Origin: Nitrospirota bacterium
Lineage (GTDB): Bacteria; Nitrospirota; Thermodesulfovibrionia; Thermodesulfovibrionales; UBA1546
Length of the DNA: 64,000 nt
Reading direction: 5' to 3'
Assembly (NCBI GenBank): GCA_009773185.1
Contig: WPIF01000008.1
Span: 1-64,000 of the forward strand
In this document: positions 30,245-49,911 of the stretch, piece by piece
Layout of the letters: each line of letters starts with the position of its first letter
How positions within the stretch are numbered: position 1 is the stretch's first letter
Notes under the pieces: model-generated
What the model was told of the DNA's origin: nothing
Seen by the model: only the letters and a program-made list of their open reading frames with translations
The model's database searches: none
Program-made: the position numbers and the translations under genes

Positions 30245-31450
30245 TTAACGATTATTCAATCCCCACTGCAAATTTTTGCATCCCCATTCCGTCCCCATAT
30301 CACAAGCTTTCTGCCAATCAGCGATAGCTTTATTTTTATCTCTTATCTTCCAATAGGCAGTCGCACGAATTCCATAGGGGATGGCATTATTGGGCTCTAA
30401 TGCAATCATCTTACTGGCATCCTCAATCGCCTTGTCAAATTGTCCCTTTTTATTATAGGCGACCCCACGATTGCCATAGGCATTGGCATGATTCGGGTTT
30501 AATTGAATCGCCTTATTATAATCTTCAATCGCCCTGTCATACATGTCTTTATTCCGGTAAGCAAACCCGCGATTGTTGTAGACATTAGCATCAGGCTCTA
30601 ATGCAATCGCCTTATTAAAATCCTCAATCGCCCTGTCGTGTTGACCTTTATCAGCATAGGCAATCCCACGATTGCCGTAGGCCAAGGCATAATCCGGGTC
30701 TAATTGAATTGACTTATCATAATCTTCAATTGCCCTGTCATGTTGACCCTTCTTGTTATAGGCATTTCCACGATTTAAATAGGAAATGGCATGTACATTT
30801 CCCCTCAATCCGGGCTCTAATGGCGGGTTTTCTAATGCAATCACCTTGGTATATGCCTCAATTGCCTTGTCGTACTCTTTAGCCTCACTATATTGCATAG
30901 CTTTATCAAACCAATCCATTGCGCTCAATGTGTCTGCTGCCTTTGCATATTCTTTCTGTTTGCTTGTGTCAGACTTTACGGCCTCAAGCTCTTTTTTCAG
31001 CTTCTCTATCTCCTTAAATGCCTCATCCGTCTTCTTTTTCGCATCCTCAAGTTCTTTTGACTTTTGCGTATCTTTGCGAAGCTTGTCAACCGAAGCAGCG
31101 ACCTCATCTGGGTCTGCCTTTATCCTTGCCTTAAGATAATATCTCTCACCATCCCATTTTTCATTGAGTATTTCTGTCTGCACAACGCCTGCGGTAAGCA
31201 TTACGACCTTATCCTTGGTAAGACGGAAGTCCTTGACCTCGGTCTCTGCCATGAGATATGTGCCCAGTTCATCAAGCACAAGCCTTTTAACCTGCTCAAC
31301 TGCAATTGCGCGGGAAGTTACCTTGCTGTCTATTTCGCTTGCCTGATAGGTGTATTCCTTTTCAAAGGTCTTAATGCCGGCAAGGGAAATGTTGAAATCT
31401 AAAACAAAAAAGACTAATGCCACAATTACCACAAGCAATGTCTTCCGCAT
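30245..31450 (-). CDS. Exported TPR-repeat protein
   Basis: About 401 residues with a signal peptide (MRKTLLVVIVALVFFVLDF, cleavage after SLAG), an N-terminal domain of about 110 residues and a Lys/Glu-rich coiled coil (about 115-185). At least five TPR units follow with strikingly regular sequence (LNRGNAYNKKGQHDRAIEDY, YGNRGIAYADKGQHDRAIED and so on), ending with a Cys pair (ACDMGTEWGCKNL). I chose ATG 31450 because AGGAGG sits just upstream; the longer frame to 31492 starts at the promoter itself. A periplasmic protein-interaction scaffold is likely; the partner is unknown. It is monocistronic with a near-consensus promoter. Confidence 0.85.
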   Translation of the reverse strand: MRKTLLVVIVALVFFVLDFNISLAGIKTFEKEYTYQASEIDSKVTSRAIAVEQVKRLVLDELGTYLMAETEVKDFRLTKDKVVMLTAGVVQTEILNEKWDGERYYLKARIKADPDEVAASVDKLRKDTQKSKELEDAKKKTDEAFKEIEKLKKELEAVKSDTSKQKEYAKAADTLSAMDWFDKAMQYSEAKEYDKAIEAYTKVIALENPPLEPGLRGNVHAISYLNRGNAYNKKGQHDRAIEDYDKSIQLDPDYALAYGNRGIAYADKGQHDRAIEDFNKAIALEPDANVYNNRGFAYRNKDMYDRAIEDYNKAIQLNPNHANAYGNRGVAYNKKGQFDKAIEDASKMIALEPNNAIPYGIRATAYWKIRDKNKAIADWQKACDMGTEWGCKNLQWGLNNR

Positions 31451-31596: not shown

Positions 31597-33195
31597 GTGA
31601 AAGTAGATTTATTGGTAAAAAACGGAATTGTTTATGACGGGACAGGCGGTGAGCCGTTTCAGGCTGATATCGGGATTGCAGGAGATAAGATAGCTTTTAT
31701 AAACAAGGTATCAGATATCAGGTGTCAGGTGTCAGGTACCAAGGCGGAAAAAACGATAGATGCGAAGGGGATGGCTGTGACGCCCGGTTTTATTGATACA
31801 CATGCGCATTCGGATTTTACATTGCTTGCTGACCCCCGCGCAGAAGGTAAAATATCTCAAGGTGTGACAACTGAGATAAGCGGGAACTGCGGGCTTTCTG
31901 CCGCGCCTTTATACAAGGATGCATTTGAGCATAGGGAAAAAGACCTTAAAGAACTTGGGATTAAAGAACGCTGGTCAACGTTTGAAGAATATTTCAGGAT
32001 ACTTACAAGGAAAGGCATTGCCCTTAATTTTGTCACATTAACCGGACACGGGAATATCCGCGCGTCTGTAATCGGTTATAAAGATAAAAAACCTGATGCT
32101 AAAGAATTAAGAAAGATGCAGTCTCTTTTAAGTCAGGCGCTTGATGCAGGAGCAACAGGGCTTTCAACAGGGCTTATTTATCCGCCGGGAATTTATTCGG
32201 ATACAGAGGAACTTATTGAATTATGCAGATGCCTGAACTCGTCACTCATTTACACCTCCCACATGAGAAGCGAAGGCAAGAATCTTATAGAATCAATCAA
32301 GGAGATAATCCGGATAGGTAAAGAAGCAAAAATTAAAGTGCATATCTCGCATATCAAGACAGCCGGAAAAGAGAACTGGCATAAGATAGGCGAAGCAATA
32401 TCATTGATAGAAAATGCCAGGGGAAAGGGAGTTAAGGTTACTTGCGACAGGTATCCATATACTGCCTCAAGCACTGACCTCGACACAATCCTGCCTTCGT
32501 GGACTTATGACGGAGGCGCGGAACAAGAGTTAAGAAGGTTGAAAAGTTCAAATATCAGGGAGAAGATAAGAAAAGAGATATTGCAGAGAATTTATGATGA
32601 AGATTACTGGGAAAGTGTCAGGGTGTCATCTGTAATTTCTCAAAAAAATAAATGGATGGAAGGCAAGACTCTTTCATATATCTCAAAAAAGATGAAGAAA
32701 AGCCCTGTGGATACGCTTTTTAAGATTTTAATAGATGAAAAATTGAGGGCAGGTGCGATATTTTCATCCATGAATGAAGATAATCTTAAGAAATTTCTCT
32801 CCCTGCCATATACAATGATAGGCTCGGACAGCTCGGCAAGAAGCTTTTCAGGCCCGACCCGCACAGGGAAGCCTCATCCAAGAACATTCGGGAGTTTTCC
32901 GAGATTCCTGGGTAAATATGTGAGGGATAACGGAATGATGAGCATGAACGAGGCTATACACAAAATGACAATGCTTCCTGCAAAGACATTCGGGATAAGG
33001 GGCAGGGGAATAATAAGAAAGGGAGCGTTTGCAGATATTGTTATCTTTGATGCTAAGAAAATTATTGATAAGGCAACATTTAACAGGCCCTTTTTAAAAC
33101 CTGACGGGATTTATTATGTGGTTGTGAATGGCAGGCCTGCGGTATGGGAAGGTAAATTTACAGGGCAGACGGCAGGGAGGGTGTTAAGACAATAA
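31597..33195 (+). CDS. D-aminoacylase / N-acyl-D-amino-acid deacylase family amidohydrolase
   Basis: Metal-dependent amidohydrolase of about 532 residues. Signatures are LLVKNGIVYDGTGGEPFQAD, MAVTPGFIDTHAHSDFTLLA (metal-binding HxH), GVTTEISGNCGLSAAP with the metal Cys, STGLIYPPGIYSDTEEL, TSHMRSEGKNLIES, KVHISHIKTAGKENWHKIGE, MIGSDSSARSF and the C-terminal GRGIIRKGAFADIVIFDAKK. Members cleave N-acyl-D-amino acids or related amides. GTG 31597 is preferred since GGAGG (31583-31587) lies 9 nt upstream; ATG 31591 is too close. Four in-frame heptamers sit in the N-terminal strand region. Its 3' end overlaps the convergent hydrogenase protease gene by 82 bp. Confidence 0.88.
   Translation: MKVDLLVKNGIVYDGTGGEPFQADIGIAGDKIAFINKVSDIRCQVSGTKAEKTIDAKGMAVTPGFIDTHAHSDFTLLADPRAEGKISQGVTTEISGNCGLSAAPLYKDAFEHREKDLKELGIKERWSTFEEYFRILTRKGIALNFVTLTGHGNIRASVIGYKDKKPDAKELRKMQSLLSQALDAGATGLSTGLIYPPGIYSDTEELIELCRCLNSSLIYTSHMRSEGKNLIESIKEIIRIGKEAKIKVHISHIKTAGKENWHKIGEAISLIENARGKGVKVTCDRYPYTASSTDLDTILPSWTYDGGAEQELRRLKSSNIREKIRKEILQRIYDEDYWESVRVSSVISQKNKWMEGKTLSYISKKMKKSPVDTLFKILIDEKLRAGAIFSSMNEDNLKKFLSLPYTMIGSDSSARSFSGPTRTGKPHPRTFGSFPRFLGKYVRDNGMMSMNEAIHKMTMLPAKTFGIRGRGIIRKGAFADIVIFDAKKIIDKATFNRPFLKPDGIYYVVVNGRPAVWEGKFTGQTAGRVLRQ
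31709..31736. repeat. Heptamer tandem repeat inside the amidohydrolase gene
   Basis: TATCAGA, TATCAGG, TGTCAGG, TGTCAGG run head to tail, coding SDIRCQVSG between the strand AFINKV and KAEKTID. Related heptamers occur at 49377-49404. Confidence 0.8.
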
Positions 33196-45700: not shown

Positions 45701-46674
45701 GACTAGGCATAAAAAGGTTTTATCTTGACGGAAAACTGAATAATATAACAACCTCTGTGTCCAAGGATTTTACTGTTAATTTTGACGGGAATATTTTTTA
45801 TAAAGGCACCCTTGAAGCACAGAATATTACCGGCGATATAAAGATAAACAGGGCGAGATACCGGGAAAGGGTTGAATGGAAAAGCTGGCTTCTTAAGGCA
45901 AGCCTGAAGGAGAAACCAAAGGCAGAGCCGACAAGGATAGAAAAGGCAGCATTGAACGTAAAGATATCCGGGGTGGAAAATATTATTGTGGATAACAATA
46001 TAGCAAACGCGCCCCTGAGGGTTGACCTGGTACTGAGGGGCACTATAGGGCATCCTCTTCTTTTCGGCAGGGTTGAATCCAGGGAAGGCAAGGTCTACTT
46101 CAGGAATAATGAGTTCCGGATATTAAATGCAAGCGCAGACTTCGCCGATCCCAACAGGATAAACCCCATGATGGAGATTGTAGCGCAGACAATAGTGAAG
46201 GGATATAATATCAAATTGAGCCTTGAAGGGCAGTTTGAACATTTTACGCTCTCGCTTATTTCCGATCCTCCGCTTGAGGAGACAGATATCCTCAGCCTGC
46301 TTACAGTAGGGCAGATAGGAAGGCAATTAAAGGGCCTTGAAGGAGGAATAGGCGCAGGAGAGGCTGCCTCATTTCTTACAGGAAAGGTTCAGGATGTCTT
46401 TGAAGACAGGGTGAGGAACATAACAGGGCTTGACAGGGTTCAGGTGGACCCTTATGTTTCAAAATCTACAGGCACAGTCGGCCCCCGTGTTACTGTGTCA
46501 AAAAGGCTTTTAGGAGACAGGCTGTTTGTAACTTATGTTTCCTCAATCGGTTCTACAGAGGAGCAGGTGCTCAGGCTCGAATACATCCTCGGCAAGAATG
46601 TTTCGCTGCTCGGTGTAAGGGACGAGAGGGGCAGCCTCGGTACAGATATTAAATTCAGGTTTGAGTACAGATGA
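42745..46674 (+). CDS. TamB/AsmA-like inner-membrane protein (DUF490 C-terminus)
   Basis: A 1,309-residue protein with one N-terminal transmembrane anchor (IIYLSLLVLFIGIIIFVS) and a very long repetitive beta-strand body, as in TamB/AsmA bridging proteins that carry phospholipid or help outer membrane protein assembly. The C-terminal DUF490 domain is recognisable from IIVDNNIANAPLRVDLVLRG, GRVESREGKVYFRNNEFRIL, SDPPLEETDILSLLTVGQIG and ERVQVDP-type SLGTDIKFRFEYR at the end. It overlaps glnD by 22 nt and the BamA gene by 4 nt. The TamB-Omp85 adjacency is a common functional pair. Confidence 0.9.
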   Translation: MENTKKLKRIIYLSLLVLFIGIIIFVSRGPYISNALKRIILPELENMSGRKVIAQKIYFNLFPLFVEARGLKFFDEEGNRVLTAERVKGYVGLSGILRKEVILKRVVITGPEISTDRGQIDDIIGKVRDYLAIENPKKIKVRAGVIEVRNGDFSFYDADYNAVITGEKVSGEVLLGDVPKMKVDIKNLISNIKNFPEFRCEMSGVLLFNKGGISIKNITLKSYASEMQAEGFYSTEGEGDLKTDLNLIIDSVKKVFGLKQKGEGKISAKGDIKFGEGPPSIDIRLKGSFYLQTLMELLKVEERVEGLVDFDGRMSGAITNLTGSADARLRRGNLFDVDIDDLRCKVSYRDGIMNFKNGKGALYNGRAEAEVSIDLPSVEHYSVRVKFTDIDSPAAFKLIEWEPGIPLGKVRGELYSSDTEFNPVGWFEYENKKTGGDFPGRVRKAKGSFSVQGDILSLINAEARTENSTLGINGTVNLSASLLNLKAKLVTVDIADLTDPYLNRMKGSGDFTGTITGKFDDPMISGMLNITSASFDDYELENIAGEFSYRKNYLEIKELSARAKGEQHNIKGNIRFQEAKEIFDLKHPDYRLTGSLRGADIGKLAKILYKKIPIKGSLDSDFSITGKDPNPEYSGTATITDAMAYDVPLDLVSSNFSYNYRDFIIKRAMVKKGSSSLTGEGRISDRERFYFNLSADRLFIRDMELKGMPDDAILSVSAEGSGTFDNPAIKINGKLSGGTFKGKPLGDGTISASVRNKEIIFNAVLFNEKMRLKGKGYLSDTLPWTAEIDMASGRYDFLLAGILKDAPEDLVVNIKGRAALSGDKKHFSASAVISQMTVALFGNSFSNDSDIRLRIDNRNILFSALTMRSGNASFSLRGNIETGKEYNLVLEGSSELSPLKGLSKRISILRGDSDFTLTVTGKWDNPHISGSLNITNASFGLKDMHQRISAINGYFYFEDDKVIIQKLSGKLGGGDIDVSGLVYLKGLGIKRFYLDGKLNNITTSVSKDFTVNFDGNIFYKGTLEAQNITGDIKINRARYRERVEWKSWLLKASLKEKPKAEPTRIEKAALNVKISGVENIIVDNNIANAPLRVDLVLRGTIGHPLLFGRVESREGKVYFRNNEFRILNASADFADPNRINPMMEIVAQTIVKGYNIKLSLEGQFEHFTLSLISDPPLEETDILSLLTVGQIGRQLKGLEGGIGAGEAASFLTGKVQDVFEDRVRNITGLDRVQVDPYVSKSTGTVGPRVTVSKRLLGDRLFVTYVSSIGSTEEQVLRLEYILGKNVSLLGVRDERGSLGTDIKFRFEYR

Positions 46675-49370
46675 CAAAAGATAGAACAAAAATTTTAGGC
46701 TTCCGCGCTATTGTTTTTCTCTGCATCTGCACTTTTGCGTTTCTGTTTTGCTGCTCTTCATTTGTAAGAGCATCTGAAACAACAATACAGAAAATAGACA
46801 TAGAGGGCCTGTATTCTATCCAGGAGGAGGAACTCTTAGGCCTTTTAAGCATAAAAGCTGGCGATGTCTTTAATCCTCTCAGCGTGGACAGCGGTATAAA
46901 AATGGCGTTTCTTAAGGGCATATTCGAAGACATATCCGTTGAACTGGATGATGACAGGACGCATGTAAAGATAATAGTTAAGGAAAGAGACATTATCAGA
47001 AATATTCATATCAAAGGTAATAAGCATGTGAAAAAAAAGGCATTGGCAGAACTTTTTCTGTTTAAGGAAGGCCAGGTTATGAGGTATGACCTCATAGAAC
47101 ATTCCACGAGGGAACTCAAGGGGACACTATCAGGGATGGGGTTCCCAAATGCCGGGGTAAAAGTGCAGGCAGAAAAAACGCGCAGGCCTTACAGAATAAA
47201 TCTTACCCTTACCATAGATGAAGGAATGCCTGAAATAATAAAGCACATCAGGATTTATGGGCCTGAAGACGAAGTAAGGCAGATAATGAAAATGTCGGAA
47301 GGCGATGTTTATGACCAATTCAAACTCAAAAAGGACATGGAAAATATAAGGGCCTATTACAAGAAAGGCAATTACCTGAATCCATCAGTTGGCCCTTATA
47401 CTTTCAGCAGCGGCGAGCTTGATATTGATGTCAACCCGGGCAAAAAACTTGACATCACATTTGAAGGCAATGATTCCGTGAGTTCAAAAACGCTTCTTAA
47501 GGAAACGCCATTTTTTGATGCCGAAGACTTCAGGGATGACCTTGTGGAAGAGGCGGTCTCAAGGATTACATCTTTATACCACACCAGGGGGTATGCCTTT
47601 GCACGGGTTGCGCCGGTGATAACCTCAGGCGAAGATGCCTTTGCCGTTACTTTTTTCATTTTTGAAGGAGATAAGGTTACTGTTAATTCTATAAAGTTTA
47701 TCGGGGCATCCATACCAGAGAAAAACCTGAAAGAGGTCATGTCTCTGAAAGAGGGCGCTTTATATAACCCTGACCTAGCAGATGCCGACAGGACAACGCT
47801 CATGGAGTTTTATAATGCAATGGGATACCTGAATATACACATGGATGATATCCAGGCGAGGATAAATGATGCAAAGGCAGACCTCACCATAACAATTAAA
47901 GAAGGCCCAAAAACCTACATAGAGGGCATTGAAATAAAAGGGGCAGAGCTTGTCTCGAAAGAAGAGGTCGAAAAGGCTATCAGGATAAAAGCAGGTTCCC
48001 CTTATAATGAGGTTGACATCTCAGATGCAAGATACAGGATTATTGAACTTTACGCGGGCTATGGTTTTAGTGATGCAAAGATTGACGTAAAACAGGAATT
48101 CAGCGAAAAGGGCATAAGGGTTACCTTCGAGGTCATTGAGGGGCCGCTGACTTTTTTCGGGAAAACTGTAATAAGCGGTAATGAAGAGACAAGATATAAG
48201 GCAATCAAGAGAGGGTTGCTGTATAAAGAGGGCGCTCCCTTTAATTATACCCTTATTACTAAAACACGCCAGAGACTGTACCGGCTTGGATTATTCACTG
48301 ATGTTGAGATAGATGCAATAGACAAGGAGACCAGCACCAGGAATATACATCTCCGGGTAAAGGAAGGAAATGCAGGGGTCGTTGAATTCGGCCTTGGATA
48401 CGGGGATTATGAACGGCTTCGGGGTTCGCTTGATATAAGCTACCGTAACCTGTTTGGAATGAACAGGCAGGCATCTTTCAGGACAGAACTCAGCACGCTG
48501 GAGCAGCGGTATATCATCAATTACCTTGAGCCATGGTTTCTGGATAGTTCTATCCCCTTCAGAATGTTATTCATAAAGGAAGCCAGGACAGAAAAAAATA
48601 TATCAACCCGCGAGACGCGGTATAAATTAAAAAGAAATTCTGCAAGTGCAGGCTTTGAAAAAAGGCTCAGCGAAAAGTTAAAGGGTGAGATTTTTTACGA
48701 ATTTGCATTGGTCAAGACTTATGACGTGCAGCCTGATATCATTCTTGCAAAGGAGGATACAGGGACACTTACAATAAGCGGCATAAAGCCCGGAATAATA
48801 TATGACACCAGAGATAATCCGTTTGATCCCAGGAAAGGCGTGCTTGCCGGCATATCGGTAAAGGCCGCATCAGGCGTACTTCTTTCAGAAACAGACTTTG
48901 TAAAGGTTATAGTTAATGGGAGCACATATAAGGAATTAAACAGATATTTTGTTTTTGCCTTAGCTTTAAAAGGGGGTTTTGCGCAGGGTTTTGACAATAC
49001 CAGGGATCTTCCGCTTGTTGAGAGGTTCTTCCTTGGCGGAAGGACCACGGCGCGCGGGTACGAGCAGGACACTTTAGGCCCTAAGGGCGTCAATGGCTCT
49101 CCAACCGGCGGCAACGCATTTTTCCTGACAAACCTTGAACTCAGGACATCCCTCGGCGAGACTTTTGGCCTTGTAACATTTGTGGACGGTGGAAATGTGT
49201 GGAGGAAAACAGGAGATATAGATCTCTCTGAGCTTAAATATACTGCAGGTATGGGCATAAGATACAACACGCCGGTCGGGCCTATCAGGGTAGATTACGG
49301 ATATAAGCTTGACAGGGAGGAAGGAGAGAGCAGGGGTGAAGTGCACTTCACTATCGGACATGCGTTCTGA
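46671..49370 (+). CDS. bamA: BamA/Omp85 outer membrane assembly factor with about seven POTRA domains
   Basis: An 899-residue Omp85 protein with a signal peptide (hydrophobic run to SFVRA). I count seven POTRA-like starts: TIQKIDIEGLYSIQE, IRNIHIKGNKHVKK, IIKHIRIYGPEDE, LDITFEGNDSVSSK, TVNSIKFIGASIPE, YIEGIEIKGAELVS and FFGKTVISGNEETR. The barrel begins near VEFGLGYGDYERLRGSLDIS, with the conserved VRGF-like loop read here as TTARGYEQDTLGPKG, and ends in FTIGHAF with a C-terminal aromatic. Most BamA proteins have five POTRAs. BamA is favoured over TamA by length and by the chaperone gene downstream, though TamB upstream leaves some doubt. Confidence 0.88.
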   Translation: MTKDRTKILGFRAIVFLCICTFAFLFCCSSFVRASETTIQKIDIEGLYSIQEEELLGLLSIKAGDVFNPLSVDSGIKMAFLKGIFEDISVELDDDRTHVKIIVKERDIIRNIHIKGNKHVKKKALAELFLFKEGQVMRYDLIEHSTRELKGTLSGMGFPNAGVKVQAEKTRRPYRINLTLTIDEGMPEIIKHIRIYGPEDEVRQIMKMSEGDVYDQFKLKKDMENIRAYYKKGNYLNPSVGPYTFSSGELDIDVNPGKKLDITFEGNDSVSSKTLLKETPFFDAEDFRDDLVEEAVSRITSLYHTRGYAFARVAPVITSGEDAFAVTFFIFEGDKVTVNSIKFIGASIPEKNLKEVMSLKEGALYNPDLADADRTTLMEFYNAMGYLNIHMDDIQARINDAKADLTITIKEGPKTYIEGIEIKGAELVSKEEVEKAIRIKAGSPYNEVDISDARYRIIELYAGYGFSDAKIDVKQEFSEKGIRVTFEVIEGPLTFFGKTVISGNEETRYKAIKRGLLYKEGAPFNYTLITKTRQRLYRLGLFTDVEIDAIDKETSTRNIHLRVKEGNAGVVEFGLGYGDYERLRGSLDISYRNLFGMNRQASFRTELSTLEQRYIINYLEPWFLDSSIPFRMLFIKEARTEKNISTRETRYKLKRNSASAGFEKRLSEKLKGEIFYEFALVKTYDVQPDIILAKEDTGTLTISGIKPGIIYDTRDNPFDPRKGVLAGISVKAASGVLLSETDFVKVIVNGSTYKELNRYFVFALALKGGFAQGFDNTRDLPLVERFFLGGRTTARGYEQDTLGPKGVNGSPTGGNAFFLTNLELRTSLGETFGLVTFVDGGNVWRKTGDIDLSELKYTAGMGIRYNTPVGPIRVDYGYKLDREEGESRGEVHFTIGHAF

Positions 49371-49911
49371 AAGCAGTTATCAGGTGTCAGTTATCAGGTG
49401 CCAGTATAAGGCAAGCAGAATACTGCTTTTTTTTATTTTGCTGTTCACTGTTCACTGTTCACTGTTCACTGTTCACTGTTCCGCTGAAGTTATCGACAGG
49501 GTTGTTGCTTTTGTTGATGACAGGGCCATAACTATGAGCGAACTTGAAAACAATTACAAAGACACGGTGAAGCTGATGCCTGGCATTAAAAAAGAAGAGG
49601 TATTAAACACAGCAATAAACAGAATACTCCTCTTGAGAGAGGCCAAAAAACTGCGTATCGAGGCCCCTGCAAAGGATGCAATCATTCAGGAATATATAGA
49701 GCTGAAACTCAAGACAATCATAAAAATAACAGAAGAAGACCTCAAGGAATTCTACGAAAAGAACAGGAAAGAATTTGGCAATGTCGAATTCGATGACGTA
49801 AGGGACAAGATAGAAAACTATCTTATAGAAAAAGAGGTCAACCAGCGATTGGAAAAACATATCGAAGAGCTAAGGTCAAAGGCATATATAAAGATTCAGC
49901 TTGAAAAATGA
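49360..49911 (+). CDS. SurA-N-like periplasmic chaperone without PPIase domain
   Basis: About 183 residues. After a signal sequence the mature part begins AEVIDRVVAFVDDRAITMSE, the hallmark of SurA N-terminal domains, and continues helically (EEVLNTAINRILLLREAKKL ... DKIENYLIEKEVNQRLEKHI). No parvulin domain follows, so it is a minimal SurA-like holdase. The signal peptide is encoded largely by tandem heptamers (49442-49476), and the residues before it by other heptamers (49377-49404). ATG 49360 overlaps the BamA stop by 11 nt; an upstream in-frame ATG at 49309 is less likely. The position after bamA supports a role in outer membrane protein delivery. Confidence 0.82.
   Translation: MRSESSYQVSVIRCQYKASRILLFFILLFTVHCSLFTVHCSAEVIDRVVAFVDDRAITMSELENNYKDTVKLMPGIKKEEVLNTAINRILLLREAKKLRIEAPAKDAIIQEYIELKLKTIIKITEEDLKEFYEKNRKEFGNVEFDDVRDKIENYLIEKEVNQRLEKHIEELRSKAYIKIQLEK
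49377..49404. repeat. Heptamer tandem repeat at the bamA / SurA-like junction
   Basis: TTATCAG, GTGTCAG, TTATCAG, GTGCCAG run head to tail. They are read in frame as the first residues of the SurA-like precursor (SYQVSVIRCQ). Confidence 0.75.
49442..49481. repeat. TGTTCAC heptamer array coding a signal peptide
   Basis: Five perfect copies of TGTTCAC (49442-49476) plus a partial sixth (TGTTC). Three units equal seven codons, so the array encodes LFTVHCS twice. Gain or loss of one or two units would shift the frame. Confidence 0.95.

Follow-up and report, generated by a model that had tools for sequence, protein, structure and literature searches.

A heptanucleotide array occupies part of the 5' coding region of a SurA-like gene in a Nitrospirota bacterium, which raises the question whether the array is a phase-variation switch of a chaperone or an ordinary, translated part of its signal peptide. 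The gene lies on contig WPIF01000008.1, within the window (positions 1 to 64,000, the whole 64,000-nt stretch of DNA that was analysed). The draft genome (here G000) consists of 44 contigs, of which stretches amounting to about 15% were sampled; all gene calls are longest-ORF calls. The locus is organized as follows:

46665-49370, + strand: bamA homologue, the 3' end of which overlaps the start of the SurA-like gene (bamA stop codon at 49368-49370).
49360-49911, + strand: SurA-N-like chaperone gene, PPIase-less; ORF from ATG 49360, 183 amino acids, predicted mature start at E43 (49486).
49360-49485, + strand: leader from the ATG to the predicted mature start, 126 nt.
49374-49405, + strand: second, shorter period-7 array, CAGTTATCAGGTGT plus CAGTTATCAGGTGC, encoding the n-region SYQVSVIRCQ.
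49426-49433, + strand: T8 tract within the leader, read from the sequence.
49441-49481, + strand: perfect heptamer array (CTGTTCA)5.86, encoding LFTVHCSLFTVHC(S), the second half of the hydrophobic stretch and the c-region of the predicted signal peptide.

The maximal perfect period-7 run spans 41 nt (5.86 CTGTTCA units, TRF score 82), and in the frame of the ORF it translates as LFTVHCSLFTVHCS. The five perfect TGTTCAC units described in the sequence-only reading are exactly present at 49442-49476 and are followed by TGTTC up to 49481. It is the sole perfect period-7 run of at least three units within the window. So long a perfect run is expected by chance about 8e-16 times per 64 kb, and this expectation together with sequence shuffles rules out a chance origin. 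Translation of the unit gives LFTVHCS in each plus-strand frame, and TGA occurs in each of the three minus-strand frames. The shorter upstream array holds TCAGTTA, the reverse complement of the TAACTGA repeat of Beggiatoaceae (PMC4679880). The T8 tract carries a C at one position in the relative G007, so that the mononucleotide run is not conserved. Two further repeats were seen elsewhere in the window: a period-7 array (TCAGGTG) at 31709-31737 in an amidohydrolase gene, where it forms codons 45-55 (VSDIRCQVSGT), and a 102-nt tandem repeat of 3.5 copies at 30419-30775, the consensus of which resembles TPR-type coding sequence on the minus strand.

The designation of the product as SurA-like is borne out by structure prediction. 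An AlphaFold model built from 16 orthologues is confident over residues 44-183 (not over the leader), and its best solved Foldseek match is SurA in the BAM-SurA complex (9hg9_F, E=1.5e-4, TM 0.59). The modelled protein thus has the SurA N-terminal fold, and its role as a periplasmic chaperone is putative. Pfam SurA_N domains score just below their cut-offs (SurA_N_3 24.7 bits vs a gathering cut-off of 27.2), and a PDB sequence search with the 183-residue protein returned nothing useful. Since no PPIase (parvulin/rotamase) domain scored above cut-off in the 183 residues, the gene is filed as SurA-N-like and not as full SurA. Its N-terminus is a predicted Sec signal peptide with a net charge of +3, the hydrophobic core ILLFFILLFTV and cleavage between CSA and E. 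The array would therefore be translated as the end of the signal peptide, as had been suggested, supplying the end of the core and the cleavage region. The hydropathy of the leader is similar to that of array-free orthologues, and the mature N-terminus is conserved (mostly E-V/I/L-I/V-D/E-R-V). Signal-peptide function, cleavage and the start at ATG 49360 are predictions.

The predicted ATG overlaps the end of bamA, and the reading frame passes through the array. A Shine-Dalgarno motif is absent at this ATG, and initiation there would rely on the overlap with bamA. GTG 49384 and TTG 49438 were rejected as alternative starts, being either not conserved or without an n-region. A real start downstream of the array, a possibility raised earlier, does not fit the sequence: there is no start codon before the conserved domain, and the next ATG lies inside it. 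For the same reason, translation of the gene has to include the array. In a modelled series of unit numbers (whole units plus 6 nt) only 2, 5 and 8 units are in frame, so that gain or loss of a single unit would indeed cause a frameshift, and a change of three units would add or remove seven residues of the signal. With 3, 4, 6 or 7 modelled units the product is truncated to 37-61 codons.

Comparison with related genomes shows that the leader is exchanged while the frame is kept. All 16 genomes of the family yielded a match, 15 of them full orthologues and one (G010) a weak N-terminal match; a further orthologue, which brings the total to 16, is from a different family in the same class (G249). 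All frames were open, and frame-broken (off) alleles were found in 0 of the 16 orthologues. The closest relative with the same array, G007, has the identical 41 nt and differs by one substitution, with no gap, over the 126-nt leader. G006 is almost identical to G000 on both sides of the leader (99.0% over the last 300 nt of bamA, 96.2% over the mature coding sequence), yet its leader is replaced by one built on a different heptamer, (CAGCTGT)n. Other leaders are built on CTGTCTA (G005), a CTGCTTA-like unit (G002) or CATTTTK (G001), and CTGTTCA is found in G000 and G007; the signal peptides of G003 and genus g6 are ordinary. The distance from ATG to mature start is nevertheless 126 nt in G000, G007, G005 and G002, and 117 nt in G006. 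A single ancestral array that drifted in concert was ruled out for G006 and G002, in which phase or unit differ; in G005, where the CTG phase matches that of G000, such drift is possible.

The orthologues also bear on the alternative that the array acts at the level of DNA or RNA, by regulating translation or by spacing bamA from the gene that follows, in the way proposed for the TAACTGA repeats of Beggiatoaceae, and that its translation is incidental. A bamA-type end lies directly upstream in 7 of the 16 orthologues, and a heptamer leader is present in 6 of these 7 vs 1 of the 9 others (P=0.009). However, adjacency to bamA follows the family tree, so this test overstates independence and is weak. 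The leader of G249, also behind bamA, contains a TGTTCAC array of 38 nt. The upstream array of TAACTGA type would fit a regulatory role as well, given that such repeats were reported just upstream of starts (PMC4679880). On the other hand, the main array has to be translated for want of a start codon between it and the conserved domain, its unit varies between species, unlike a binding site, and the same kind of arrays lies deep in the coding regions of CobD, HemH and MurD. We therefore consider a DNA- or RNA-level role unlikely.

Arrays of this kind are widespread in the genome. Among imperfect arrays in 418 kb, period 7 was found 34 times and the other periods between 5 and 16 were found 0-5 times, the harmonic 14 excepted; exact period-7 arrays numbered 10 vs 0 in shuffles. 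Many lie inside genes, with domains matching on both sides, namely in MurC, MurD, MurE (ORF L055:2088-3626, assigned by gene order and motif), Ddl, ferrochelatase (HemH), YegS and an amidohydrolase. Comparison of the murein/division gene cluster among four congeners gave 15 internal indel blocks, and at 10 of them there is a heptamer array. The loop inserts of MurD are absent from solved MurD and differ among relatives, where other repeat-derived peptides are found. In the MurD gene of G000 (L054:16956-18434, minus strand, contig C18) and its orthologues (L077-L089) the loop peptides differ per relative; they include NPPIPPLVKGGEGGF- and PPTYPSPSRGEGKGE-type peptides, which resemble other dispersed DNA repeats translated in frame. 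The signal peptide of a DacA-like protein (ORF L054:18400-19710, by motif only) behaves like that of the SurA-like protein: among four congeners it is built on TGTTCAC in G006 and G005, on GCTTGCA in G007 and on an ACAAGTG-type unit in G000.

Within the phylum, TGTTCAC arrays were detected in 24 of 296 genomes. Recurrent TGTTCAC leaders belong to proteins resembling FlgI, LolA, DacA, M16 peptidases, a secretin, LptE and CbiM, names that rest on recognizable translation motifs and not on a family search. In five genomes (L102, L104, L111, L112, L249) the array directly precedes the prepilin motif G-FTLIE, FTLVE or FTLLE, and these prepilin arrays give long hydrophobic leaders. A CobD/CbiB-like loop contains the same TGTTCAC array of 28-29 nt in five genomes of three families (L097, L098, L100, L105, L239), which may reflect unusual stability of a coding array or transfer of the gene. 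Altogether, 45 of 50 TGTTCAC arrays that were checked run into a downstream ORF of at least 75 codons, two of these 45 preceding a murG start and not lying in the gene. The TGTTCAC arrays are thus not mainly intergenic, as is otherwise characteristic of heptameric simple-sequence repeats. The other traits of such populations are present: a genome-wide excess of period 7 and units common to several phyla. Exact copies of the 41-nt array are present in eight phyla or more, with matches in Bacteroidota, Cyanobacteria, Gammaproteobacteria, Acidobacteria, Planctomycetes, Chloroflexi, Elusimicrobia and Desulfoluna. Spread by phages was considered and rejected, as a 29-nt stretch of the array was found in only 3 stretches of IMG/VR contigs.

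The sequence-only reading had proposed a contingency locus that, by controlling the chaperone, would alter the whole surface. In such a locus, slipped-strand mispairing would shift the unit number by one and turn the SurA-like gene off or on, as in NeuO of Escherichia coli K1. The part of this proposal that concerns anatomy holds, as the array is perfect, lies in the 5' coding region and has a unit length that is not a multiple of three. NeuO is a proven heptanucleotide precedent (PMC3046976), and heptanucleotides are listed as possible mediators of phase variation in Haemophilus influenzae (PMC2651432). The part that concerns switching is not supported. The array has 5.9 units, vs the variable 2-93 of NeuO and 13-38 of hmw, its length is the same in G007, off alleles were not observed in the 16 orthologues, and other relatives carry other units. 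The constant copy number at this locus rests on one comparison, G007 being the only relative that retains the CTGTTCA unit. Arrays in coding positions that retain their unit between species have constant lengths (41/41 nt for this array, 27/27/27 for MurD, 25/25 for MurC), and the CobD array stays at 28-29 nt in the five genomes, which belong to three families. Leaders account for 31 of the 50 distinct TGTTCAC arrays, and 29 of these 31 have an in-frame upstream start, whereas free switching would leave about one third in frame (P ~3e-12). This excess rules out neutral, frequent switching across the array population; rare switching, or selection for the on state at the SurA-like locus, may be compatible with it. 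Such arrays are, moreover, found across cytoplasmic enzymes with housekeeping roles (MurC, MurD and HemH, for example) and not in surface functions, which argues against a switch that alters the surface. We consider a contingency locus unlikely, slightly more so than a DNA- or RNA-level role.

For two of the 31 leader arrays no ordinary start codon is in frame, and these two may represent frame-broken alleles. One precedes a prepilin (L102), for which no ATG, GTG or TTG start was found in frame. The other (L242, in G014) belongs to a lipoprotein-like gene, possibly a pseudogene, with a TGA between the ATG and the heptamer-built signal peptide; this stop codon lies just before the array, and a change in unit number would not obviously remove it. 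An artefact of assembly or sequencing can practically be dismissed: tandem repeats can collapse in a draft of 44 contigs, but a usual read is longer than 41 nt, the same array is present in the independent assembly of another species (G007) and the ORF is open.

We consider it probable that heptameric repeats recurrently supply leader and loop sequence, and are exchanged as such, under the constraint of the reading frame. This reading builds on direct observations: the anatomy of the array, the specificity for period 7, arrays that lie in frame, orthologous sites at which the unit differs, and flanks that are nearly identical. The array would be translated as part of a normal Sec signal peptide, giving the end of the ILLFFILLFTV core and the C-S-A region up to the E at the cleavage site. 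Heptameric simple-sequence repeats would arise, or be inserted, as short arrays of 3-6 units and would survive only where the reading frame is preserved by their overall length and the protein tolerates the heptapeptide, namely in signal peptides, in the leaders of prepilins and in surface loops of enzymes. Between closely related species, arrays at such sites would then be swapped for arrays of another unit, so that the leader sequence is renewed but retains its length and its function. We infer that change occurs mainly through replacement and not through switching of single units; a different unit may expand in place, two arrays may recombine, or an entire leader may be imported. It is tempting to go further and regard this as a lineage in which heptamer arrays serve as exchangeable raw material, with fixed sites (the SurA-like and DacA-like signal peptides, the MurD and HemH loops) repeatedly overwritten by a mechanism that prefers period 7 and with length and frame kept; we hold this to be nearly an even call.

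Heptameric repeats as such are already known from cyanobacteria, Xanthomonas and Beggiatoaceae, where they were described chiefly from intergenic regions, and so is the heptanucleotide switch of NeuO. A literature search that scarcely covered subscription papers yielded no account of heptamer arrays that form signal peptides or enzyme loops and whose units are replaced at fixed sites. The excess of heptamers in bacteria has been noted for years without explanation, and here the arrays are parts of proteins, including enzymes of essential pathways. A signal peptide swapped for another repeat, in genes with 96-99% identity elsewhere, makes it possible to test why the period is seven and by what route new leader peptides and loops originate. 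Caution is also called for, as a repeat unit that is out of frame is not always a phase-variation switch.

Among known systems, the poly-psi heptanucleotide VNTR of NeuO in E. coli K1 (2-93 units, on/off switching by slippage; PMC3046976) shares the position in the 5' coding region; in both cases three units encode one heptapeptide and only multiples of three keep the frame. In NeuO, however, the heptads form an extension of the enzyme, whereas here 5.9 units of constant number form a predicted signal peptide and the unit differs between species. The 7-bp repeats of H. influenzae hmw are likewise heptanucleotide arrays, but they are located in promoters and tune expression through 13-38 variable copies (PMC2651432). 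Borg tandem repeats (PMC9879509) are similar in lying in ORFs under frame selection, in evolving fast and in being enriched in proteins with signal peptides; their ORF units are divisible by three, whereas here the unit is seven and only the total length keeps the frame. The TAACTGA repeats of marine Beggiatoaceae, a single unit that is mostly intergenic and was read as a translation regulator, are heptamers of 2-6 units near gene starts and occur across phyla, as do the present arrays, and the same unit is contained in the array at 49374-49405; in reverse orientation they lie inside some Beggiatoaceae ORFs, at the ends of proteins (PMC4679880). In contrast to them, many units are used here and leaders and loops are built from them. 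The heptameric repeats of cyanobacteria and Xanthomonas (GGGAATC, GGGGATT) are described as G-rich and in intergenic excess, and phase variation was judged unlikely for them (PMC4692102). Like these, the present arrays are numerous per genome, exceed neighbouring unit sizes and are not tied to surface genes; unlike them, they comprise many different units, and many of them lie in frame inside proteins.
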